A stretch of DNA of 64,000 nt from NCBI RefSeq assembly GCF_018413525.1, contig NZ_JAHCDD010000001.1, positions 93,158-157,157 of the forward strand. The letters run 5' to 3'. Source of the DNA: Acidovorax sp. CCYZU-2555 (GTDB lineage Bacteria; Pseudomonadota; Gammaproteobacteria; Burkholderiales; Burkholderiaceae_C). The translations under genes and the position numbers were made by a program. The notes under the pieces are model-generated. The model saw only the letters and a program-made list of their open reading frames with translations, was not told the origin of the DNA and did no database searches. Shown one piece after another: positions 16,232 through 27,558 of this stretch (positions within the stretch are counted from its first letter, which is position 1; the number at the start of each line of letters is the position of its first letter).

Positions 16232-17008
16232 CTATTCTGCCGTGCCCATGTGACGCGCGGATGGAAGCGGCGCCCTTTTGCCGGCCGCTTCCTTTTCCAG
16301 CGCAAGGCTCTCGCGGTGGTACATGTAGGCGCCAAACAGCACGCCGCCCACCAGGCTCAGCGGATTGGACGAGCCGGCGATCAGCAGCAGATTGTTCATG
16401 GTGACGCCGCTCCAGACGCCTGCGGTGATCTTCAAGCCCGACTCGCGTATCTTCTTGGGCTGGCGATCGAAGTAATAAGTGATGCCCGCCTTGATCACAA
16501 AGAGTCCCACCAGGCCGGCCGCCGAAGTGTTGACCAGGCCATTCTTCTCGGCCAGGGACGCATGGTTGAGACCGATATATGTCGTGACGCTGTCGCCGAC
16601 CGCTGCGGCCAGCGGGATCAGCGCGGCTTGCGAATACCCCGAGGTCCGACCGGGCTCTTCGGCCTGGGCGGCCGGCGGGGGCTCGGCGGGCAGCGGGTTT
16701 TCCACCGCGGGCGCCGGGCCCACCACAATCGATTCACCGGCCGAATAGCGCATGCCCGCAGATGTGGCCTGAGGTGCGGCCGCGAAAACCCGCTCTTGCG
16801 CCGGCGGGGCCGCCAAGCCCAGCACGATCGACTCACCGGCCGAATAACGAATCGTCTTTTCCATCGTCAGCTGCGGCAGCAACTGGCCCGACTGCGCAGG
16901 CGCCTCATCCGCTGAACCCGTCTCGACACTTGCCTGCTGGGCACTTGCGGCCGCAGCGCAGGTTGCAAACACCGTGGTTGCAACCCACTTTCTCAATACA
17001 TCCGACAT
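16232..17008 (-). CDS. Secreted/membrane protein with YSAGESI repeats and conserved C-terminal hydrophobic domain (paralogue 1)
   Basis: 258 residues from the ATG at 17008, chosen because it opens a signal peptide (MSDVLRKWVATTVFA, cleavage near ASAQQ). A low-complexity region then carries three copies of a short motif: RYSAGESIVLG (54-64), RYSAGESIVVG (87-97) and a degenerate GYSQAALIPLA (124-134). The last runs straight into a conserved domain (about 138-245; GDSVTTYIGL, AGLVGLFVIKAGITYYFD, WSGVTMNNLLLIAGSSNPLS, FGAYMY) with about three hydrophobic helices. I do not recognise the family. A close paralogue lies at 24405-25115, and the two flank the RND metal-efflux cluster, all on the same strand. 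Confidence 0.75.
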   Translation of the reverse strand: MSDVLRKWVATTVFATCAAAASAQQASVETGSADEAPAQSGQLLPQLTMEKTIRYSAGESIVLGLAAPPAQERVFAAAPQATSAGMRYSAGESIVVGPAPAVENPLPAEPPPAAQAEEPGRTSGYSQAALIPLAAAVGDSVTTYIGLNHASLAEKNGLVNTSAAGLVGLFVIKAGITYYFDRQPKKIRESGLKITAGVWSGVTMNNLLLIAGSSNPLSLVGGVLFGAYMYHRESLALEKEAAGKRAPLPSARHMGTAE

Positions 17009-17037
17009 CTCGCCAACCCTATACACACTGTTCAAAC

Positions 17038-17063
17038 AAAAAAAACCGGGCCCCAAAGGCCCG
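17038..17063 (-). terminator. Terminator-like hairpin in the leader of the YSAGESI paralogue 1
   Basis: Read on the minus strand, CGGGCC (17063-17058), a 5-nt loop and GGCCCG (17052-17047) are followed by a G and eight T (17045-17038). It ends about 30 nt upstream of the paralogue's ATG. It could be the distal terminator of the metal cluster or an attenuator of the gene that follows. Confidence 0.6.
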
Positions 17064-17180
17064 ACACACAAGGTTGGCAAAACAGGATTTCAACGCATTG
17101 AATCACCGGGCGGCATGGAATGCCTGCCCCTGTCCGCGCAACCACACGAAGCAATTCGCACGATTACGAACATTGGATTC

Positions 17181-17253
17181 AAAAAAAAACATCTCCATGA
17201 CGGAGATGTCGGATATGCGACATTTGCGCGCCGGCTCGCATGAAGCCGGCGCG
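17181..17253 (-). terminator. Rho-independent terminator downstream of the metal-efflux cluster
   Basis: On the minus strand a GC-rich hairpin comes first (arms CGCGCCGGCT 17244-17253 and 17227-17236, loop of 7). It is followed by a second perfect 8-bp hairpin (ACATCTCC 17189-17196 / GGAGATGT 17202-17209) ending in nine T (17189-17181). It sits right after the stop of the small CusF-like gene at 17262. This is the clear end of the efflux operon. Confidence 0.85.
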
Positions 17254-17261
17254 ATTGGAAC

Positions 17262-17639
17262 TTACTTCAACGTGAAGCGCGCCGTGCCCAGCGCCTTGCC
17301 GCCATCGGTGACCACCGCCACCACCTTGGTGCCCGGCGCCACCTTGAACGTGCCCTTGGCTTCGAGTTTGTCGCCCGCGGGCAGCAGCTGGGCCTCCTGC
17401 TTGTCCTTGCCCGCGAGCAGCGTCAGCTTGGCGCCGGCCTTGGACAGGTCGCGCGCCTTGCCGTGGTCGGAGACATAGAGCTGCAGCACATCAGGCTTGG
17501 CCACGAGTTCATAGTCGGCTTCCTTGGCCGCGGCAACGACGCCGCCATGCGCGGGGTCATGGGCATGGTTGCCCGCGGCAAGGACCGGGGCGGCCGCCAC
17601 CAGGGCGGCGAGGGAAAGCGTGGCAATGGCGATTTTCAT
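17262..17639 (-). CDS. Small periplasmic protein of the RND metal-efflux cluster
   Basis: 125 residues with a signal peptide (MKIAIATLSLAALVAA, cleavage near VLAAG). The mature N-terminus GNHAHDPAHGG is His-rich and may bind metal. The rest (YELVAKPDVLQLYVSDHG ... KLTLLAG ... GTARFTLK) looks like a small beta-sandwich. It is the last gene of the cluster, 23 bp after the pump, the position held by CusF-like chaperones in other clusters. It lacks the Trp/Met copper site I would expect in CusF, so only a general metal-chaperone role is inferred. Confidence 0.8.
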   Translation of the reverse strand: MKIAIATLSLAALVAAAPVLAAGNHAHDPAHGGVVAAAKEADYELVAKPDVLQLYVSDHGKARDLSKAGAKLTLLAGKDKQEAQLLPAGDKLEAKGTFKVAPGTKVVAVVTDGGKALGTARFTLK

Positions 17640-17662
17640 GAGAGTCCTTTCGGTTGGGTGAA

Positions 17663-20600
17663 TCACAGGGCTTCGACGTCTTTGGATTCCATGAGGCGCT
17701 CGGCGTCCGCACGGCCGAAGAGCCAGAACATGGCGGGGGTCAGGAAGGTGTCGAGCAAGGTGGCGCTGATCAGGCCGCAGAAGATCACGACCGCCACCGG
17801 GTGCAGCACTTCGGTGCCCGGCTGCTCGGCTTCGAACAGCAGCGGCGCGAGCGCGAACGCCGTCACCAGCGCGGTCATCAGCACGGGCGCGAGCCGTTCG
17901 AGCGAGCCGCGCACGATCATCTTGTGATCGAAGTTCTCGCCTTCGAGCCGCATCAGGTTCACGTAATGGCTGACTTTCAGAATGCCGTTGCGCACCGAAA
18001 TGCCGGCCAGCGTGATGAAGCCCACGAGCGCGGCGATCGACAGCGGCTGGCCCGAAAGCCACAGGCCCAGCACCGCGCCGACCAGGGCCAGCGGGATGTT
18101 GGCCATGATCAGCAGCGACAGCCGCGTCGACTGGTAGCGGCTGTAGAGCACGATGAACATCAGCGTCAGCGACACCAGCGACAACAGGCCCACGAGCTTG
18201 GAAGCTTCTTCCTGTGCCTGGAACTGCCCGCCCAGCGTGACGAAATAACCTTCGGGCAAAGGCATGTCGGCGATCACCTGGCGCATGTCGGCGACGATGT
18301 CGGAAAGCGGCCGGCCCTGCGAGTTCGCCGACAGCACGATGCGGCGCTTGCCGTCGTCGCGGCTGATCTGGTTGGGGCCGTCGCCTTCCTCGATGCTCGC
18401 GATCTTCGACAGCGGAACGCGGCCCGTGGGCGTCTCGATCAGGATGTCCTTGAGCCCGTTGGCCGAACGCGTCTCTTCGGGCAGTTTCACGACCAGCGCG
18501 AAGCGCCGCCCGCCTTCGACGATCTGCGTCACGCGCTCGCCTTCGACCAGGCTTTGCAGCGTGGCCAGCACCTGCGGCACGGGCACGCCGTACTGCGCGG
18601 CGGCCGCATAGTCGATGCGCACCTTGATCTGCGGCGCCAGCACCTGCTTTTCGACTTCGAGATCGGCCAGGCCGGGAATGGCCGCGAGCCGCGCGCGCAG
18701 CGCATCGGCCTGGCCGCGCAAGGTGTCGAGGTCTTCGCCGAAGATCTTGATTGCGATTTGCGAGCGCACGCCCGACAGCATGTGATCGATGCGGTGAGAG
18801 ATGGGCTGGCCGATCGAAATCGCCGCCGGCAGGTTCGCCAGCCGCGCGCGGATATCGGCCGAGATCTCCGCCATCGAGCGCGTGAGTTCGCCCGAAGGCT
18901 TGAGGCCTACGTCGAGCTCGCTCACATGCACGCCTTCGGCATGCTCGTCGAGTTCGGCGCGGCCGCTGCGCCGGCCCACGTGGGTCACTTCGGGCACCTG
19001 CTTGACCAGCACTTCGGCCTGGCGCGCGAGCGCCGACGTCTCCGACAGCGTCACGCCCGGGTTGAGCCGTATGCCAATCATCAGCGTGCCTTCGTTGAAC
19101 GGCGGCAGAAAGGTCGTGGGAAAGAACGGCACCGAAGCAATGGCCAGCAGCACCGCCACACCCGCGGCCGCGAGCGTGGCCTTGGGGCGGTTCAAGACCT
19201 TCTGCAAGCCGACCGCGTACTGGCGCTTGAGCCAGGCCAGCAGCCGCGTATCGCCATGGTCCAGCGACTTCATGCCGGGCAGCAGGTAGTACGACAGCAC
19301 GGGCGTCACCGTGACCGACACCATCAGGCTCGCCAGCGTCGAGACGATGAACGCAATGCCCAGCGGAATGAACAGCCGGCCCTCGATGCCCGGCAGCGCG
19401 AACAGCGGCACGAACACCAGCACGATGATCACCGTGGCGTAGAGAATCGCCGAGCGCACTTCCATCGACGCGCGTGCGACCAGCGCCAGCACATTGGTGC
19501 GCTGGCCCGGGTGGCGCGCGCGGTCTTCCTTCAGGCGCCGCAGGATGTTCTCCACATCGACCACGGCATCATCGACCAGGCCGCCGATGGCGATCGCCAG
19601 CCCGCCCAGCGTCATGGTGTTGATCGACAGACCGAAGTACTTGAAGACCAGGGCCGTGAGAAAGATCGACACCGGAATCGCCGTGAGCGCGATGATGGTC
19701 GGGCGCAGCGTTCCCAGGAAGAAGAACAGGATGGCGGCGACGAACACCGACGCGCCAATCAGCTTCCACTTGAGGTTGTCTATCGACGCCTCGATGAAGC
19801 TTGCCTGGCGGAAGGTCACGCGCGGCGCGTCCATGCCCGCGGGCAGCGAGGCATTCATGCCTTCGAGTGCCTGCTCGATGGCGCGCGTGAGCGCGATGGT
19901 GTCGGCCGTGGGCTGCTTCTGTATGCCCAGAATCACCGCGGGCTTGCCTTCGAAGCCCGCGTCGCCGCGCTTGAGCGCCGCGGCGAACGTGACTTCGGCG
20001 ATCTGGCGCAGCAGGATGGGCTGGCCGTTCTTCGCCGTGAGCGCGAGGTTGCTCAGGTCTTCGAGGCGCGAAGTTCTGCCCAGATGGCGGATCAGATATT
20101 CGCGGCCGTTGAGCTCGAGAAATCCGCCCGAGGTATTGGATGAGTAGCCCTTGAGCGCGGACTCGAGCTGGTCATGCGAAATGCCCAGATCGGCCATGCG
20201 CCGCGTGTCGGGCTGCACCTGGAACTGGCGCACTTCGCCGCCGATGGGAATCACCTGGGCCACGCCCGGCACGGCCATGAGCCGCGGGCGCAGCACCCAG
20301 TCGGCGTACTCGCGCACCGCCATCTGCGAGACCTTGGCGGTGTCGACGGGAATCGCGATCTGCATGATTTCGCCCATGATGGAGCTGATGGGCCCCATGC
20401 GCGGCACCACGCCGGGCGCTATGCCCTCCTCCATCGACGCGAGGCGTTCGGACACCATCTGCCGTGCGCGGAAGATGTCCGTGCTCCAGTCGAAGGTGAT
20501 GTAGACGAACGACAGGCCCGCCGATGAAACGGAGCGCACGGTTTCCACACCGGTCAGGCCGTTCATCGTGGTTTCGAGCGGAAAGGTGATCAGCTGTTCG

Positions 20601-20782
20601 ACCTCCTCGGCGGCCATGCCGCCGGCCTCGGTCATCACGGTGACCGTAGGCTTGTTGAGATCGGGAAAGACGTCGACGGGCGTGCGCGAAAGCGTCCACG
20701 CGCCGTAGAACATCAGCACCACGCTGGCGATGATGACCAGCAGGCGATTGGCCAGGCTGTTGACGAGAAGCCATTTGAACAT
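17663..20782 (-). CDS. Heavy-metal RND efflux pump (CzcA/CusA family)
   Basis: 1039 residues, full length for HME-RND pumps. It exports metal cations across the outer membrane using the proton gradient, with the adaptor and outer-membrane factor encoded just upstream. N-terminal helix LLVIIASVVLMFYGAW and TPVDVFPDLNKPTVTV are family hallmarks. The helix-4 proton-relay segment reads AIAIGGLVDDAVVDVEN (about 395-411), keeping the Asp and Glu positions of this superfamily but differing from the DFGx3DGAx3VEN of Zn/Co/Cd CzcA. The metal therefore cannot be assigned confidently. LPEGYFVTLGGQFQAQ and a large periplasmic loop are also seen. It starts 14 bp after the adaptor gene. Confidence 0.93.
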   Translation of the reverse strand: MFKWLLVNSLANRLLVIIASVVLMFYGAWTLSRTPVDVFPDLNKPTVTVMTEAGGMAAEEVEQLITFPLETTMNGLTGVETVRSVSSAGLSFVYITFDWSTDIFRARQMVSERLASMEEGIAPGVVPRMGPISSIMGEIMQIAIPVDTAKVSQMAVREYADWVLRPRLMAVPGVAQVIPIGGEVRQFQVQPDTRRMADLGISHDQLESALKGYSSNTSGGFLELNGREYLIRHLGRTSRLEDLSNLALTAKNGQPILLRQIAEVTFAAALKRGDAGFEGKPAVILGIQKQPTADTIALTRAIEQALEGMNASLPAGMDAPRVTFRQASFIEASIDNLKWKLIGASVFVAAILFFFLGTLRPTIIALTAIPVSIFLTALVFKYFGLSINTMTLGGLAIAIGGLVDDAVVDVENILRRLKEDRARHPGQRTNVLALVARASMEVRSAILYATVIIVLVFVPLFALPGIEGRLFIPLGIAFIVSTLASLMVSVTVTPVLSYYLLPGMKSLDHGDTRLLAWLKRQYAVGLQKVLNRPKATLAAAGVAVLLAIASVPFFPTTFLPPFNEGTLMIGIRLNPGVTLSETSALARQAEVLVKQVPEVTHVGRRSGRAELDEHAEGVHVSELDVGLKPSGELTRSMAEISADIRARLANLPAAISIGQPISHRIDHMLSGVRSQIAIKIFGEDLDTLRGQADALRARLAAIPGLADLEVEKQVLAPQIKVRIDYAAAAQYGVPVPQVLATLQSLVEGERVTQIVEGGRRFALVVKLPEETRSANGLKDILIETPTGRVPLSKIASIEEGDGPNQISRDDGKRRIVLSANSQGRPLSDIVADMRQVIADMPLPEGYFVTLGGQFQAQEEASKLVGLLSLVSLTLMFIVLYSRYQSTRLSLLIMANIPLALVGAVLGLWLSGQPLSIAALVGFITLAGISVRNGILKVSHYVNLMRLEGENFDHKMIVRGSLERLAPVLMTALVTAFALAPLLFEAEQPGTEVLHPVAVVIFCGLISATLLDTFLTPAMFWLFGRADAERLMESKDVEAL

Positions 20783-20796
20783 TTGAATGGCTCCCG

Positions 20797-21894
20797 TTAA
20801 CGGACTTGGTTGACCAGCGTCGCGCCTTGCGTTGCGACACGGTCACCGGCCTGCAGGCCGGACGTCACGGCCACCCGGGCGCCGTCGAGCGGCGCCGTAG
20901 TGACCACGCGCGGCTCCAGTCGTTCGGGCCCGGCCTTAACCCAGACGATGTCCTGGTTCGCGGGGTTACGCATCAGCGCGGCCGCGGGCACGGCAATGCC
21001 TTTGACGGTCGAGCGGCTCTGCACGAAGACCTTGACCGGCTGGCCCAGGGCCAGGGTGCTGAGCGCATCGCCCTGGGCGCGGAACACCATGGGCAAGGCC
21101 TGCTCGCGCAAGGAGCGCGCCGCGCCGACAAAACGCAGTTCCACGCGCTGGCCGCCGACCACCATGCTCGCGCTGGCGACGTCGGACGCCAGCGCGGTAT
21201 CGAAGGCCAGGGCCTCGACATTGACCTGCGCCGGGTCGACCACTTCGTAAACCAGTTCGCGTGCATCGACCACCTGGCCCGCGACCGCATAGGCCGCGGC
21301 AATCACGCCCGACACGGGTGCGATCAGCGGCTCGCGCGCGCCCACGGCCGCGGACAGCGCGGAAATGCGCGCCGACAGGCTTGCGCTCTCCGACTCTACG
21401 GCCTCGATCTCCTTGCGCGGCACGGTGTCGCTCAAGTCCTTGAGGCGCGCCAGGCGCTTGTCGGCCAGCGTCCGCGCTGCGCGCAGTTCGGCGATCTGCG
21501 CCGCCTGGCTCGAACGGTCCATCGCCGCCGTGGCGGCCGTGACATAGGCCAGCACTTCGCCCTTGCGCACGCGCTGGCCCATCACGGGCAGGCCCTTGGG
21601 GCCGGCTTCAATGCGGCCCGCGGTCATGGGCTGCACCTTGCCGCCCGCGTTCGGGTCCATCACCACGCGGCCCGCGAGCTCAATGGTGCGCGGCAGCTCG
21701 CCGGACTGAACGACCAGGGTGCGCAAGGCCAGCTGGCGTTGCGCGGGCTTGGGCAGAAACACGCTGCCGTCGGGCTGGCGGCCCGGGCCGTTGGCGTTGG
21801 CCACGGGCGCGGGGCCGCCATGGTCATGGCCGGCATCGGCCCAGGCGGGCATGGCGGCGGCGAGCAGGAGTGTGAGCAACAGCGGGCGCATCAT
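20797..21894 (-). CDS. RND periplasmic adaptor (membrane fusion protein, CzcB/CusB-like)
   Basis: 365 residues from the first of two adjacent ATGs (21894), behind GGGAGG at 12-nt distance. A signal peptide (MMRPLLLTLLLAAAMPAWA) is followed by HDHGG, a His-rich mature N-terminus. The lipoyl/hairpin core follows: ELAGRVVMDPNAGGKVQ, GLPVMGQRVRKGEVLAYV, a coiled-coil hairpin about 140-200 (RTLADKRLARLKDLSD, KEIEAVESESASLSARIS), then PVSGVIAAAYAVAGQVV. It overlaps the upstream small gene by 4 bp (ATGA) and precedes the pump gene. Confidence 0.9.
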   Translation of the reverse strand: MMRPLLLTLLLAAAMPAWADAGHDHGGPAPVANANGPGRQPDGSVFLPKPAQRQLALRTLVVQSGELPRTIELAGRVVMDPNAGGKVQPMTAGRIEAGPKGLPVMGQRVRKGEVLAYVTAATAAMDRSSQAAQIAELRAARTLADKRLARLKDLSDTVPRKEIEAVESESASLSARISALSAAVGAREPLIAPVSGVIAAAYAVAGQVVDARELVYEVVDPAQVNVEALAFDTALASDVASASMVVGGQRVELRFVGAARSLREQALPMVFRAQGDALSTLALGQPVKVFVQSRSTVKGIAVPAAALMRNPANQDIVWVKAGPERLEPRVVTTAPLDGARVAVTSGLQAGDRVATQGATLVNQVR

Positions 21895-22427
21895 GCTGCA
21901 CCTCCCGAACGACGAAAAGCGCTGCGGCGCAGCAGCCACAGACCGCCACCGGCCATGCCCAGCGCGGCCAGGCCCCAGGGCAGCAAGGCGCGCCAATCGC
22001 GGTGCGTGTATTCTTGGGCGGCATCGGCGTGCACATCGAAATCGCCGGCCAGCAGATCGTTCTCTTCACCGGCGGCCACGGTCACCGTGACCGAAGTCAC
22101 GCCGGGTGCCAAGGCCTGGGCCAGCGTGCCTTCGAACTCGCCCGCGGCGATTTCCTTGACCACGACCGGCGTGTCGCCCACGCTCACTTCGAGCGCGGCG
22201 CCGGCAACGGGCGCGTTGTCGGCAAAGCGGTCGAGATAGAGCGCGAGCTGCGTGCCGTTGGCCGTGCCGACGATTTCAAACAGTTCGGACGCCGCGGCAA
22301 AGCGTGGGATCACCGGCGCCGACGGGCTGGCCGCGGGCGCGTCATGGCTGTGGCCGGCATCGGCCAGGGCCAGCGGGCTGTAGAGGCCCGCGAGCAGGCT
22401 TGCGCCTGCAAGAATTGCATTGAACAT
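21891..22427 (-). CDS. Membrane-anchored periplasmic accessory protein of the efflux cluster
   Basis: 178 residues from the ATG at 22427 with AGGAA upstream; a GTG at 22445 overlaps the preceding stop but would spoil the signal peptide. Signal peptide MFNAILAGASLLAGLYSPLALA, then a short His motif (DAGHSHD), a beta-rich periplasmic domain (about 40-140; LYLDRFADNAPV, ALEVSVGDTPVVVKE, LAPGVTSVTVTVAAG) and a C-terminal anchor helix (about 150-168) with a basic tail RRSAFRR. Similar unnamed proteins accompany Czc-like clusters in Burkholderiales. Role probably structural or metal-sensing; not known. Confidence 0.75.
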   Translation of the reverse strand: MFNAILAGASLLAGLYSPLALADAGHSHDAPAASPSAPVIPRFAAASELFEIVGTANGTQLALYLDRFADNAPVAGAALEVSVGDTPVVVKEIAAGEFEGTLAQALAPGVTSVTVTVAAGEENDLLAGDFDVHADAAQEYTHRDWRALLPWGLAALGMAGGGLWLLRRSAFRRSGGAA

Positions 22428-22441
22428 GGAATTTCCTGTGC

Positions 22442-23680
22442 TCACTCGGGCAGCAGCCCGAGCGCCTGACGAAGTTGAGAGATGGCGGCGCCGACTTCGA
22501 GTCGGCTGCGGGCGGCCTGGCGTTCGGCCTCGAAAGCTTCGAGATCGATGCGCAGCCGCGTGGGCAGATCGCTTTCGCCGAGGCGAAAAGCCTTGTCGAA
22601 GAAACCGCGCGACTCGCCGGCCAGGGTGGCGCGCCGTTCGGCGGCGGCGCGCGCCTGCGTCAGCAGTTCGACGCGCGTGCGCGCCAGCGCGATACGGGAG
22701 TCGATGCGCTGCATTTCCAGGTCGAGCTGGCTTTGCGCTTCGAGCAGGTCGGCGCTCGCATTCGCGATGCGGGCGTCGCTGACACTCGAGCGCCCCAGGG
22801 GAATGCGCACACCGACATTGATGCTCTGCGCCGAGCGCTCGCCGCGCGCATCGCGCTCGTGCGTCGTGCCCAGCGACAGCTCGGGGTTGGCGCGCGTCTG
22901 CACGCCGGCCAGCTCCTGCTGGCGCCGTGCCAGATCGACCTTGGCCTGCAGATCGCGCAGCGCGGGATGGTCGGCCACGGGCGTCTGCGCGGGCAGCGGC
23001 TCTTGGGGGCCCTCGCCGAGTTCCTGGGCGGTGAGGGCCTGCCAGACCTGGGCGGTCTGCGCCACGGCGACCGCGGCTTCGGCCACGGCGCTTTGCGCCA
23101 CCGCCACCGCCGAATCGGCCTGGTGGGCGTCGGCGCGCGCGAGATCGCCGGCCGTGACGCGGCGCAGCACGTCCCGGGCAATGCCCTGGGCGCTGAGCAG
23201 TTTCTCCTGCGCGACCTGCTGCTCGATGCGCGCGCGCTGCTGCGCCCAGTACGCTTCGCGCACTTCATCAGCGAGGCGCCACCGGGCCGCGCCCACGAGT
23301 GCGTCGACCGCATGCGCCTGCGACTGCGCCGCGGCCTGCGACTTCGCGCGCTCGCCCGGCGACCACAGCGGCACGGACACCGCGGCTTCGTACTCGCGCG
23401 ATCCTTCGTTGCGATGCCAGCGATCGCTGCGCGTCGAGAGATCGAGCGCCATGGTCTGCGGCGTCCAGCGCTCGGCGGCGCGCAGGCCTGCGGCGGCGGC
23501 ATCGCGGCGCAGCGCCGCCGAGCGCTGTTCCGGCTGCTTGGCCCAGGCGGTTTCAAAGCCCAGTCGCAACGGCGTCTGGGAAGGAGATTGGGCACTGCCC
23601 GTCTGGGCATGGCCCAAGATGGCGGCCGTCAGCAATGCGGCCGCCAGAATGCCGGGGGAAGCCCAGCGTATGCGTTTCAT
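22442..23680 (-). CDS. Outer-membrane efflux factor (TolC/CzcC-like)
   Basis: 412 residues. The start at 23680 opens a signal peptide (MKRIRWASPGILAAALLTAA, cleavage near GHAQT). Two OEP repeats follow, with long coiled-coil helices: AWAKQPEQRSAALRRDAAA, ARADAHQADSAVAVAQSAV and, in the second half, DLLEAQSQLDLEMQRIDSRI. GVRIPLGRSSVSDARIA is a typical beta-strand/helix junction. It forms the outer-membrane duct for the adaptor and pump encoded downstream, and ends 15 bp before the accessory gene. Confidence 0.9.
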   Translation of the reverse strand: MKRIRWASPGILAAALLTAAILGHAQTGSAQSPSQTPLRLGFETAWAKQPEQRSAALRRDAAAAGLRAAERWTPQTMALDLSTRSDRWHRNEGSREYEAAVSVPLWSPGERAKSQAAAQSQAHAVDALVGAARWRLADEVREAYWAQQRARIEQQVAQEKLLSAQGIARDVLRRVTAGDLARADAHQADSAVAVAQSAVAEAAVAVAQTAQVWQALTAQELGEGPQEPLPAQTPVADHPALRDLQAKVDLARRQQELAGVQTRANPELSLGTTHERDARGERSAQSINVGVRIPLGRSSVSDARIANASADLLEAQSQLDLEMQRIDSRIALARTRVELLTQARAAAERRATLAGESRGFFDKAFRLGESDLPTRLRIDLEAFEAERQAARSRLEVGAAISQLRQALGLLPE

Positions 23681-23778
23681 GGAATGTTCGTCGTGAATGC
23701 GGGCGCGTGCCCGCGGGTCCAAAAGTCGACGAAGACGCCCCGCCCCTGTTCAGGGAGCGCGGCCGGTCCTCGCCGGCG

Positions 23779-24129
23779 TCAGGCGACGAAAAAGGAAGGG
23801 GGACGCAGCAGGCTGCCTGGCGGCGGCTCGGGAAATGCGACGCTGCCGTGCGCCTGCAGATAGCCTTCGGCCCACGGCGGATGCGCGGCGTCCGATGTGG
23901 GCAAATAAGCCACACCGATGCCGTGGCAGGTGTGGCAATCGGGGTGTGGCTGCAGCGCATCATTGGCCGACGCGCTGGCGTCGCCAGCGTGCGCATCATC
24001 GCTGTGGCGGTGTTCGTGGTGGCCGAAATGGGCCGCCCCTTGCTCATGCTCACACACGCTTGCAGCCGCCGCCCAGCTCCATTGGAGAGGCAGAAGACAC
24101 ATCATGGAAATGAGAATGAGGCGGCGCAT
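23779..24129 (-). CDS. Small His/Cys-rich secreted protein heading the efflux cluster
   Basis: 116 residues with signal peptide MRRLILISMMCLLPLQWSWA. The mature part is rich in His (EHEQGAAHFGHHEHRHSDDAH) and has Cys in SVCEH and HPDCHTCHG, a plausible periplasmic metal-binding site. CHTCH fits the CxxCH spacing, but in so short a His-rich protein it more likely binds metal than heme. It is the first gene of the cluster, 98 bp before the outer-membrane factor. Similar small leader genes occur in czc/cus loci as metal buffers or sensors. Confidence 0.75.
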   Translation of the reverse strand: MRRLILISMMCLLPLQWSWAAAASVCEHEQGAAHFGHHEHRHSDDAHAGDASASANDALQPHPDCHTCHGIGVAYLPTSDAAHPPWAEGYLQAHGSVAFPEPPPGSLLRPPSFFVA

Positions 24130-24404
24130 TGAGCTCAGAGTCTAACGGCTAACAAAAACGATAGTGAGCGGCAATGCCTTGATTTTGCAAGTTCATTTCG
24201 CGGGCGGCGATGCCGCAGGACGCAGCGTGTCGGGCGCCCTCCCCCTGTGCAAAACAGCCCGCCATATTTCGAAAAATTCAATATCTTAAAAAATGCGGAC
24301 CGCATATTTTTAGATATTGCATCTGTTTTCAAAACAGCAAACAAATTACAAAGCAAAACAATTTACACAATTTGACGCACTTGGAATTATTTTAGAAGAT
24401 TCTT
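24130..24404. other. AT-rich intergenic stretch upstream of the efflux cluster
   Basis: Base composition changes abruptly: runs such as AAAAATTCAATATC and CAAAACAGCAAACAAATT contrast with the surrounding GC-rich DNA. It must hold the promoter of the efflux cluster (start 24129) and the 3' end of the preceding paralogue. A short palindrome AGAAGATTCTTCT near 24393-24405 may be that gene's weak terminator. No open frame of note. Confidence 0.6.
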
Positions 24405-25115
24405 CTATTTGGCTTGCGCAGCGATTCTCTGCGAAGACTTGGCAGCTTCTTCTTTTTCCAAGGTAAGGCCTTCACGACGGTACATATAGGCACCGAACAA
24501 GGCACCGCCCACAAGACTCAATGGATTGGAAGATCCGGCGATCAGCAACAGGTTGTTCATCGTCACCCCACTCCATACGCCTGCGGAAGCCTTGAGTCCC
24601 GTCTTGCGCAGTGTCGACTCCTGATTATCAAAATAATAGATAATTCCGGCCTTGATCACAAACAGACCAAGCAAGCCAGCCGGCGAAGTATTGATCAGAC
24701 CGTTTTGCTCGGCAAGACCTGCCTGACCCAGGCCAATGTGAGTAGTTACACTGTCACCCAGCGCTCCTGCCAGCGGAATGGAGGAGGCGCCCGAATACCC
24801 GACTACCCTCTTTGGGGGATACTCCAACGGAATGGACTCCCCTGCGGAATACTTGACCACCTTGATTTTCGGCACAGATTCATTTGCCTGTGCAACTTCT
24901 ATATTTTTGGTTTTCTGAATCTCCTTTGGGTAACCCAAGGGTATGGAATCACCTGCCGAATAACGGGTGACCTTGTTGGTTGAATTTTTTGTGGTGTTGC
25001 TGAGTTGCGAAGCGTCATTGCTATTCGAATGAAGCCCCTCATTTTCATCGCGGGCATGTGCCGTTGCTGTACAAACTACCGCTACTGCAGCAGATATAAT
25101 CAATTTTCTTAACAT
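24405..25115 (-). CDS. Secreted/membrane protein with YSAG[ED]SI repeats (paralogue 2, AT-rich)
   Basis: 236 residues. Signal peptide MLRKLIISAAVAVVCTATAHA, then a Ser/Asn-rich spacer and three motif copies: RYSAGDSIPLGYP (51-63), KYSAGESIPLEYP (88-100) and GYSGASSIPLAG (106-117). The third leads directly into the same C-terminal domain as at 16232-17008 (GDSVTTHIGL, GLFVIKAGIIYYFD, WSGVTMNNLLLIAGSSNPLS, LFGAYMYRRE). Domain identity is very high while the N-termini diverge. Base composition is markedly more AT-rich than its paralogue and neighbours, suggesting acquisition from another source. Family and function not recognised. Confidence 0.75.
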   Translation of the reverse strand: MLRKLIISAAVAVVCTATAHARDENEGLHSNSNDASQLSNTTKNSTNKVTRYSAGDSIPLGYPKEIQKTKNIEVAQANESVPKIKVVKYSAGESIPLEYPPKRVVGYSGASSIPLAGALGDSVTTHIGLGQAGLAEQNGLINTSPAGLLGLFVIKAGIIYYFDNQESTLRKTGLKASAGVWSGVTMNNLLLIAGSSNPLSLVGGALFGAYMYRREGLTLEKEEAAKSSQRIAAQAK

Positions 25116-25225
25116 TTCAATTATCCAATTACTCTTTCATACAAATCCGCCAGAATTATAATTGGAATCAAAAAAACAGCGCTTTTCGGTAAAAAGTACA
25201 AGGTTTATTTCAATCTGTCATAAAG

Positions 25226-26209
25226 CTATGGCAGCACGCCGTCGCATTGCCCGCCATCGCTGCGCCAGCGCGTGAAGTGCGGCATGCGCAGCAACTGGTC
25301 CAGCGTCACGCCCTGTCCGGCAGAGGTCGCGAAGCGATTGATGGCCAGCCCGCGCTCATCGGTGGTCGCGTAAAAGCTGTGCGCGACCCGGTCATTGGTG
25401 TCCAGGCCCACCAGCCCGCCAGCGACCGCGCCCGCTGCGCTCACGGCGCCGCTCGCATAGCTGTCGGAGATGAGCGCCAGGCCGCGCAACGCGTCGTTGT
25501 AGCCCACCAGTCCGCCCACATAGTCCCGGCCCTCGACCACCCCGCTCGCATAGGCTTGCTTGATGCTCGCGCTGCCCGCGTAAGCTTCGTTGTGCCCCAC
25601 CAGTCCGCCTACATTGCTGCCCGTGCCGCGCACTGCAGCGCCCGCGTGGGAGCGCGAGATAGTGCTGCGGCCGCCGTAACTTTCGTTATGTCCCACCAGA
25701 CCGCCAATAGTTCCAGATGCGGTGACCGGTACCAGGGCGCAGGCCCGGTCGATGCGGGCGCTGCCATCGACGGCTTCGTGGTGCCCGACCAGCGCACCGA
25801 CGTTTTCGCCGCCCGTCACCTGGCCGCCCACCAGGCGCACATTGCGCAGCGTGGCATTGCGCGTGCGGCCAAACAGGCCCACGTTGTTTTCGCCGGGGCG
25901 ATGGATGAACAAACCATGGATGACGTGGCCGCGGCCATCGAAGCTGCCGGTAAAGGGTGCGCCATCGCGGCCTATCGGCGCAAAACCCGCACCGCCGTTC
26001 CAGTCCGCCGTGGCGCGGGCGTCTATGGATTGGGCCAACGCGTAATGACCAGCGAGGCCGTGGCCCATGGCCTGCAAGCCTTCGATGCTGTAGATAAGCG
26101 TTTCGCGCCGACCCGCGCCCTCGTTCACGGCAGCCTGGGCATGGACCAGCGCTGCCAGCGCCATGGTAGGCAACGTCGCTAGCGCCAAGACAAGCGGGGG
26201 GAAGCGCAT
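25226..26209 (-). CDS. Secreted GLUG-repeat protein
   Basis: 327 residues with signal peptide MRFPPLVLALATLPTMALAA (cleavage near VHAQA). After FTGSFDGRGHVIHGLFI, a segment typical of these proteins, come about five GLUG-type repeats: NVGALVGHHE, TIGGLVGHNE, NVGGLVGHNE, YVGGLVGYND and VAGGLVGLD. Each of the first four is followed by a similar 20-residue tail ending in a beta strand, so a small right-handed beta-helix is likely. GLUG repeats normally sit in large surface proteins and adhesins. This is a short stand-alone version, without an obvious anchor or secretion domain. It lies 110 bp upstream of the AT-rich YSAG paralogue on the same strand. Confidence 0.8.
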   Translation of the reverse strand: MRFPPLVLALATLPTMALAALVHAQAAVNEGAGRRETLIYSIEGLQAMGHGLAGHYALAQSIDARATADWNGGAGFAPIGRDGAPFTGSFDGRGHVIHGLFIHRPGENNVGLFGRTRNATLRNVRLVGGQVTGGENVGALVGHHEAVDGSARIDRACALVPVTASGTIGGLVGHNESYGGRSTISRSHAGAAVRGTGSNVGGLVGHNEAYAGSASIKQAYASGVVEGRDYVGGLVGYNDALRGLALISDSYASGAVSAAGAVAGGLVGLDTNDRVAHSFYATTDERGLAINRFATSAGQGVTLDQLLRMPHFTRWRSDGGQCDGVLP

Positions 26210-26547
26210 GGGTTGTGGTCCGTTAATTTTCGCCTCTGACCCGCTTCATTGGGAACCGTTTACGGCGCAAAGCGTGCCGGCAAAAGGCCCGCGACTATCC
26301 CAGCGCCAAGCCCGCAGCGCCGGCTCCACCGACACCTGAAGCATGCGACCCTCCTAGGTGACATTCCCAGGATGCAAACCCGCGGCCTGTACGCACAATG
26401 GGGTGACCGCAGGCAGCGGCCACACCCAAGCCGCACCTTCATCGCTCCCTACGCAACAGGCACCCCAAGCCGGTGGCTGGCGGTCCTCGCTCATCCCTAC
26501 ATTGCCGGGCCCTGCTCCAGCGCAGCGGCCGGCTGCCTGATTGCCAC
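26210..26547. other. Intergenic region between divergent genes, no gene seen
   Basis: 338 bp between the GLUG gene (-) and the E1-alpha gene (+). It should contain both promoters. I see no convincing open frame, hairpin with T-run or repeat. A short CCTAGG palindrome lies near 26352, and nothing else stands out. Confidence 0.5.
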
Positions 26548-27558
26548 ATGACCGACCTGCTTTCCCTCTACCGGACCATGGTCCGTATCCGAGCCTTTGA
26601 AGACGCGGCCGAACGCGCCAGCCAAGGTGGCGTGCAAATCTGGGGCCAGAGCGCCGCGCCCGACGCCCAGCCGGCGCTGGTCAAGGGGCCGCTGCACCTG
26701 TCCACGGGCCAGGAAGCCGTCGCAGCTGGCGTCTGCGCCCATCTGCAGACCCGCGACCTGCTGACTTCGACCCACCGCGGCCACGGCCATACGCTGGCCA
26801 AGGGCGCCGACAGCACGCGCATGATGTGCGAGCTGTTCGGCCGCGCCACGGGCTACAACAAGGGCAAGGGCGGCTCCATGCACATCGCCGATTTCTCGGT
26901 CGGCATGCTGGGCGCCAATGGCGTGGTCACGGCCGGCCTGCCGATCGCCGTGGGCGCGGCGCATGCGCTCAAGCTGCGCGGCGAAGACGCCATCGCGGTC
27001 TGCTTCTTTGGCGACGGCGCGATCAACCGCGGGCCGTTTCTCGAAGCGCTGAACTGGGCGCAGATCTACCAGTTGCCCGTGCTGTTCGTCTGTGAAGACA
27101 ACCAGATTTCCGCGACCACGCGCTCGGCGCCCATGACCGCCGGTACCCAGGCCGCGAGCGCGCGCGCCGAGGCGCTGGGCATTGCCGCGACCCAGGTCGA
27201 CGGCAACGATGTGCTGGCCGTGAGCGCCGCCGCACAGCAGCTGATCGCCGGCATTCGCGCGGGCAGCGGCCCACGCCTGCTGCATGCGCTGACCTACCGC
27301 CACAAGGGCCATGTGTCAGTGGACCCCGCGCATTACCGCGACCCGGCCGAAGTCGCGGCCGCGCTGCTGACCGACCCGATCTCGCGCGCGCGCGAATTGC
27401 TCGCGTCGCGCGGCCAGGCCGATGCCGCGGCGCAGGTGCTGGCCCAGGCCCAGGCCGAGATCGCGGCGGCCGTCGCCACGGCCAAGGCCGCCCCCGTTCC
27501 CCTGGCCGAAGAGGCCTATCAAGATATCGCCACCACCGGCCAAGGAGTCTGGGCATGA
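26548..27558 (+). CDS. ThDP-dependent 2-oxo acid/acetoin dehydrogenase E1 alpha subunit
   Basis: 336 residues from the ATG at 26548. The ThDP motif is CFFGDGAINRGPFLEALNWA ... VCEDNQIS (about 150-190). HLSTGQEAVAAG and STHRGHGHTLAKGAD, with the active-site His, are typical of AcoA/PdhA-type E1 alpha. The Ser loop (YRHKGHVSVDPAHYR) resembles acetoin dehydrogenase more than branched-chain E1. It overlaps the beta-subunit gene by 4 bp (ATGA). No E2 or E3 gene follows, so the substrate (pyruvate, acetoin or another 2-oxo compound) is unproven. Confidence 0.88.
   Translation: MTDLLSLYRTMVRIRAFEDAAERASQGGVQIWGQSAAPDAQPALVKGPLHLSTGQEAVAAGVCAHLQTRDLLTSTHRGHGHTLAKGADSTRMMCELFGRATGYNKGKGGSMHIADFSVGMLGANGVVTAGLPIAVGAAHALKLRGEDAIAVCFFGDGAINRGPFLEALNWAQIYQLPVLFVCEDNQISATTRSAPMTAGTQAASARAEALGIAATQVDGNDVLAVSAAAQQLIAGIRAGSGPRLLHALTYRHKGHVSVDPAHYRDPAEVAAALLTDPISRARELLASRGQADAAAQVLAQAQAEIAAAVATAKAAPVPLAEEAYQDIATTGQGVWA

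Follow-up and report, generated by a model that had tools for sequence, protein, structure and literature searches.

A 64,000-nucleotide stretch of the genome of Acidovorax sp. CCYZU-2555 (contig NZ_JAHCDD010000001.1, positions 93,158 to 157,157; hereafter the window) carries a six-gene heavy-metal efflux cluster bracketed by two paralogous genes, whose products we call proteins A and B. Both open reading frames lie on the minus strand with the six cluster frames between them (Table 1), just as an earlier, sequence-only reading of this DNA had placed them.

Table 1. Features of the A–B region, in positions of the window
Feature	Position	Strand	Description or basis
Protein A	16232..17008	-	258 residues: signal peptide (by eye), two canonical motifs, four-helix domain
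Protein A four-helix domain, residues about 127-232	16313..16630	-	alignment to B
Protein A degenerate motif echo GYSQAALIPLA, residues 124-134, at domain start	16607..16639	-	
Protein A motif copy 2, RYSAGESIVVG, residues 87-97	16718..16750	-	
Protein A motif copy 1, RYSAGESIVLG, residues 54-64	16817..16849	-	
Protein A likely signal peptide, residues 1-23	16940..17008	-	sequence, by eye
Leader between metal cluster and A	17009..17225	-	70% identity over 216/217 bases in G003
Second terminator-like hairpin, 36 bases before A start codon	17045..17065	-	
Terminator-like hairpin after metal cluster	17188..17210	-	
Six-gene metal-efflux cluster	17262..24129	-	RND pump, membrane-fusion protein, outer-membrane protein, three small proteins without Pfam match; open reading frames 17262-17639, 17663-20782, 20797-21996, 21891-22445, 22442-23722, 23779-24129
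Protein B	24405..25115	-	236 residues: signal peptide (by eye), two canonical motifs, four-helix domain
Protein B four-helix domain, residues 109-214	24474..24791	-	AlphaFold2 model
Protein B degenerate motif echo GYSGASSIPLA, residues 106-116	24768..24800	-	
Protein B motif copy 2, KYSAGESIPLE, residues 88-98	24822..24854	-	
Protein B motif copy 1, RYSAGDSIPLG, residues 51-61	24933..24965	-	
Protein B likely signal peptide, residues 1-22	25050..25115	-	sequence and hydropathy
GLUG-repeat protein adjoining B	25226..26209	-	61% identical to the one beside the G006 family member

In terms of architecture, the canonical motif of both proteins is [RK]-Y-S-A-G-[DE]-S-I-x-[LV]-[GE], present twice in A and twice in B. 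The sequence-only reading counted three copies in each; the third site, however, is degenerate, with no G-[DE]-S core, and coincides with the entrance to the C-terminal domain, at its first predicted helix. That domain, about 105 residues long, had been described as nearly identical in the two proteins. The segment WSGVTMNNLLLIAGSSNPLS is indeed common to both, but across the codon alignment 86 of 113 aligned residues are identical (76%). The N-termini had been called otherwise unrelated, which holds for the linkers between the motifs (12/64 residues identical) but not for the extreme N-terminus, where both proteins start with a signal-peptide-like segment (by eye). No lipobox was seen by eye in either protein.

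A search of 5.8 billion proteins returned 51 relatives, five of which bear organism names: four are assigned to Comamonas and the fifth to Pantoea sp. 18069; the contig of the latter is part of G038, which falls in the same genus as the window. A second search, started from a wider alignment, gave ten matches, nine of them new (P0052–P0060); with the best 7,998 candidates scored, this number is to be read as at least ten. Of 65 family sequences, 32 have two copies of the motif, 20 have three, 1 has one and 12 have none; the tally contains near-duplicates, four of its three-copy counts include a degenerate copy, and one zero is a fragment.

The motif recurs well beyond chance expectation. A degenerate DNA pattern for Y-S-A-G-[DEQ]-S-I matches 13 times in eight genomes, each time inside family genes, compared with a single match to the reversed control pattern in the same genomes. 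The matches are spread over five of the eight genomes, with none in three, and the four in the window's own genome (G000) lie only in A and B. Across 125 motif units, collected with a pattern that already requires similar residues, each of Y, A, G, S, and I is retained in at least 121, and the units are spaced 18–40 residues apart. Two relatives, P0046 and P0048, retain T-Y-x-[AS]-G-[DE]-S-I-P-[IL]-G despite quite different linkers. In six pairwise codon comparisons, each with 19–33 motif codons and several with saturated synonymous divergence (Ks), the nonsynonymous divergence (Ka) is 0.07–0.15 for the motif, 0.12–0.17 for the domain, and 0.44–1.67 for the linker. Because the motif is constrained while the linkers drift, the peptides look as though they have been selected as peptides, with changing number and spacing. 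The final residues of the motif also lean one way or the other, with SIVLG in the clade of A and SIPLG in most other paralogues.

When all non-repeat sites were scored against the motif, the domain entrance was the top match in 41 of 53 sequences, which are related and do not represent 41 independent cases; the scoring set aside P0049 and P0051 (fragments) and P0053–P0060 (motif-free). The entrance echo of A is the best of 205 non-repeat sites, yet its score is negative (−3.7), and that of B is the best of 183 with a score of 2.6. Entrance scores are mostly low or negative throughout, and in the other 12 sequences the entrance ranks 2nd to 13th. Since the entrance is nonetheless the best non-repeat match in most of the set, the comparison suggests that the motif peptides may have been copied from the entrance of the domain itself. 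An extension of this idea is that the repeats act as segment-swap linkers, in which copies of the entrance peptide (YSxAxxIPLA) would occupy, in an adjacent molecule, the groove that takes the entrance itself, linking the proteins into chains. The frequent top rank of the entrance is what such a scheme would predict, but its poor scores are not, nor is the fact that nine of the 12 sequences with a lower-ranked entrance, P0046 and P0026 included, do carry repeats. We consider chaining of this kind improbable.

The AlphaFold2 model of B places four helices at residues 109–131, 145–163, 167–192, and from 197 on, preceded by a low-confidence arm. Ten-residue blocks between residues 111 and 230 have a mean predicted local distance difference test score (pLDDT) of 86–96, with two exceptions: 131–140 (59), which is the loop holding E136 and N138, and 141–150 (80). 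The arm stays below 55, apart from 61 in the block with motif 1. Residues D121, E136, N138, K155, N188, G204, and G208 are invariant in all 65 aligned rows and T125 is retained in 64. The model of a relative encoded on a phage contig (L099) likewise shows four helices at matching places, its input alignment having included A and B.

The sequence-only reading knew of no family with this layout, and the paralogous family has no match above the curated cut-offs of the Pfam and NCBIfam versions run; its domain does bear a remote likeness to DUF5658 (PF18902, function unknown). Against the profile PF18902.5 (cut-off 25.2 bits), A scores 14.1 bits, P0032–P0034 13.2–13.6 bits, and L026 17.9 bits, and every member with bits shown falls below the cut-off. 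At E values up to 0.2, PF18902 matches 32 of 65 members (best E value 0.0023), and the protein database labels P0032, P0033, and P0034, near-orthologues of A, with the newer PF18902.6. Profile alignment with hhalign relates the family to one DUF5658 protein with a probability of 45.8% (P = 2e-4) and gives nil for a second (0.6%). In the DUF5658 protein L098 the D-to-T and D-to-E spacings equal those of the family, and its K comes two positions later and is left unaligned by hhalign. A fold search with the model of the phage relative ranked an archaeal-virus DUF5658 protein sixth, at a level that is not significant (E value 2.4, root-mean-square deviation 5.0). Both groups have D-x-x-T-T and E-x-N at equal spacing in a helical, membrane-type domain, to which the family of A and B adds a likely signal peptide, the motif arm, and the NNLL and GG...FG helices. 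Judged by these alignments, the domain of A and B appears to be a remote relative, and possibly a member, of DUF5658.

We tentatively propose, at somewhat less than even confidence, that A and B are exported, inner-membrane-anchored paralogues with a flexible periplasmic arm that displays two conserved 11-residue docking peptides. The predicted signal peptide would direct export, the four-helix DUF5658-like domain would anchor the protein in the inner membrane, and the arm, disordered in the AlphaFold model, would hold the two strictly conserved peptides in the periplasm. There, each peptide may bind the same site on a putative partner protein, and copy number may tune the strength of binding. 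Such a docking array is the simplest account because the peptides are constrained, the linkers are free, the number of copies is variable, and the anchor is of membrane type. The suggestion in the sequence-only reading that the repeat could be a docking or assembly signal is consistent with the same evolutionary pattern of a constrained motif.

Several observations weigh against this proposal. The exact motif pattern occurs nowhere outside family genes in the eight genomes, and the existence of repeat-free relatives means that the domain is usable without the arm. The model of B is modest overall (mean pLDDT 68.6, predicted template modelling score 0.52), and a fold search with it found no convincing match among solved structures. 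Helix hydropathy is low, with a best 19-residue mean of 1.34 in the domain; it is therefore possible that the bundle is something other than a classic membrane domain. Finally, the loop between helices 2 and 3 is positively charged, which under the positive-inside rule fits poorly with a periplasmic N-terminus if all four helices span the membrane.

A probable signal peptide, short units that are almost identical, spacers that drift, and a copy number that differs between relatives are also what would be expected if the repeats were processing sites, or small peptides cut from a membrane-held precursor in the manner of multi-copy peptide precursors. However, no protease, exporter, or receptor gene recurs beside the family in the genus loci inspected by eye, among which the G006 contig is short, and the C-terminal domain is constrained as strongly as the motif itself. 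We therefore give a processing role little credence.

In terms of distribution, the family was found in five of 53 genomes of the window's genus (G000, G003, G006, G010, and G038). A draw of the taxonomic family gave at least six carriers in 399 genomes, four of them with repeat-free distant relatives, and draws of the order and class gave at least one in 399 and at least two in 369, respectively, with the best few candidates per genome scored. In all five genus carriers the family gene or genes flank one E1-E2-folA operon on its upstream side. The order in the window is metallophosphoesterase, A, metal cluster, B, GLUG-repeat gene, and E1; in G003 it is phosphoesterase, an insert, A, metal cluster, and E1, without B; and in G038 it is thyA, family member, and E1, without a metal cluster. 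G006 has E1 (cut off, and the sole operon gene on its contig), family member, GLUG-repeat gene, TpsB, and TpsA. In G010 the order is TpsA, TpsB, family member, and an adjacent folA, and E1 and E2 are not in the 19.9-kb stretch read. The cargo types at the site comprise the metal cluster, two-partner secretion (TPS) genes, the GLUG-repeat gene, and the thyA junction, and the cargo differs in each of the five genomes (window 24129-26548 together with L018, L019, L022, and L023). Because of this difference, the bracketing of the metal cluster by A and B is one arrangement at a variable site.

The gene orders in G006 and G010 bring into view a role as a TPS accessory, in which the peptides would bind TpsA, the substrate, or else the POTRA domains of TpsB while the substrate crosses the periplasm. 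A family member lies in the tpsB neighbourhood in two of the five genus carriers, and the window retains a GLUG-repeat gene beside B. A precedent for such a helper, and no more than that, comes from Burkholderia, where BcpO is described (PMC3415462) as a small, predicted outer-membrane lipoprotein whose gene lies 5′ of bcpB and without which the system is not fully active. As described there, BcpO resembles the family in being a small exported protein, and the family gene immediately precedes the TpsB gene in G010, with one further gene in between in G006. It differs in that it is a predicted outer-membrane lipoprotein, whereas A and B have no lipobox by eye and carry a four-helix domain.

The distribution of TpsB itself argues against this role. 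Proteins at least 59% identical to the TpsB of G006 are present in nine genomes of the genus, yet the family occurs only in G006 and G010 among these. Two of the seven TpsB genomes without a family member, G026 and G033, are only 85% complete, and inspection by eye of five of the seven tpsB loci found no family member within 1.5 kb. Moreover, G038 and G000 have B without an adjacent TpsB, A-type genes adjoin the metal cluster instead, and the shared chromosomal site may account for the proximity. A TPS accessory is on balance unlikely, if better placed than processing or chaining. The TpsA protein of G006 (L019 5051-9579), truncated where the contig ends, combines an extended signal peptide with a TPS domain and 13 GLUG stretches.

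The relationship between A and B bears on how the metal cluster came to lie between them. In a tree of 68 rows and 119 columns, from which the fragments P0049 and P0051 were dropped, A belongs to a 15-row clade that excludes B (support 93/94). A 29-row group with B and the G038 and G006 proteins forms an open fork (support 82/92), and the G010 protein belongs to a third group of eight rows, so that "B-type" does not denote one firm clade. The order of the outgroups is unsure and the deeper forks are weak. Because A's clade stands apart from B, the phylogeny indicates that the split between A and B predates the gene arrangement in the window. Insertion of the cluster between tandem duplicates, one of two scenarios in the sequence-only reading, is consequently too simple, all the more so as G003 has A and the cluster without B. 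The gene for B has a GC content at third codon positions (GC3) of 0.52, compared with 0.76–0.88 in four measured neighbours (A, the GLUG-repeat gene, E1, and the RND pump), and the family gene of G038 has a similarly low GC3 of 0.48.

The other scenario was that the pair is a functional part of the locus; as accessory parts of a Czc-type metal-efflux locus, A and B might be, for instance, periplasmic metal handlers or pump assembly factors. A does adjoin a closely similar cluster in both G000 and G003, whose RND pumps are 93% identical, and the leader preceding A was found in these two genomes and in no other of the 53 of the genus. A is only 63% identical to its G003 counterpart, however, and homologues of the last cluster gene, counted down to 44% identity and as a gene rather than a whole cluster, are present in 14 of the 53 genomes, an A-type gene in only two of these. 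Family members stand without an adjacent cluster in G006, G010, and G038, and in G010 the last-gene homologue is on another contig than the family member. In addition, the motif consensus contains no Cys or His, and the cluster and A have two terminator-like hairpins between them, in a scan that gave 15 such sites in the region versus 9.1 expected in shuffled sequence. Homologues standing as single genes, never near metal-efflux loci and without the repeat, would have refuted the sequence-only reading; single-gene homologues away from metal loci do exist, as do repeat-free ones, which goes part of the way to such a refutation. We regard a working part in metal efflux as very improbable, and the cluster is most likely a neighbour at a variable site, not the system that A and B serve. 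The leader itself could be a regulatory leader.

A broader scheme would unite the docking and entrance-copy ideas in a new envelope module: a polar-cored four-helix membrane domain with a periplasmic arm of one to three copies of the entrance helix, chaining or capturing partners through a single peptide-groove contact, with the SIVLG and SIPLG paralogues, next to metal-efflux and adhesin-secretion genes, each specific for a different partner. It is a long shot in this full form. To our knowledge, conserved short docking peptides in disordered arms have rarely been described in the bacterial periplasm. With its naturally occurring range of 0 to 3 motif copies, its two paralogous motif types, and outgroups that lack the repeat, the family lends itself to a direct test of what the peptides do. 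The domain further links DUF5658 to envelope proteins and to a phage-contig lipoprotein, with the invariant D, E, N, and K as a handle.

The repeat-free relatives comprise L099 9740-10327, a G1272 lipoprotein, L026–L030, P0050, and P0052–P0060. They share with A and B the domain with its D, E, N, K, and N (from alignments; by eye for G1272) and differ in having no motif arm, in a lipobox in two of them (by eye), and in their gene neighbours. Some are found near mnmG-like genes (by eye) and some near T2SSE/T2SSF genes, about 6 kb off. The phage-contig lipoprotein, L099 9740-10327, has the lipobox LSGC (by eye) before the same four-helix domain and adjoins repressor-like and RecT-like genes (named by eye). 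The repeat-free lipoprotein of G1272 adjoins a VipA/VipB sheath gene. L105 1394-2923, beside a lipoprotein that carries the domain, is a single open reading frame of 509 residues that matches VipA (36–129) and VipB (203–495), apparently a fused type VI sheath gene.

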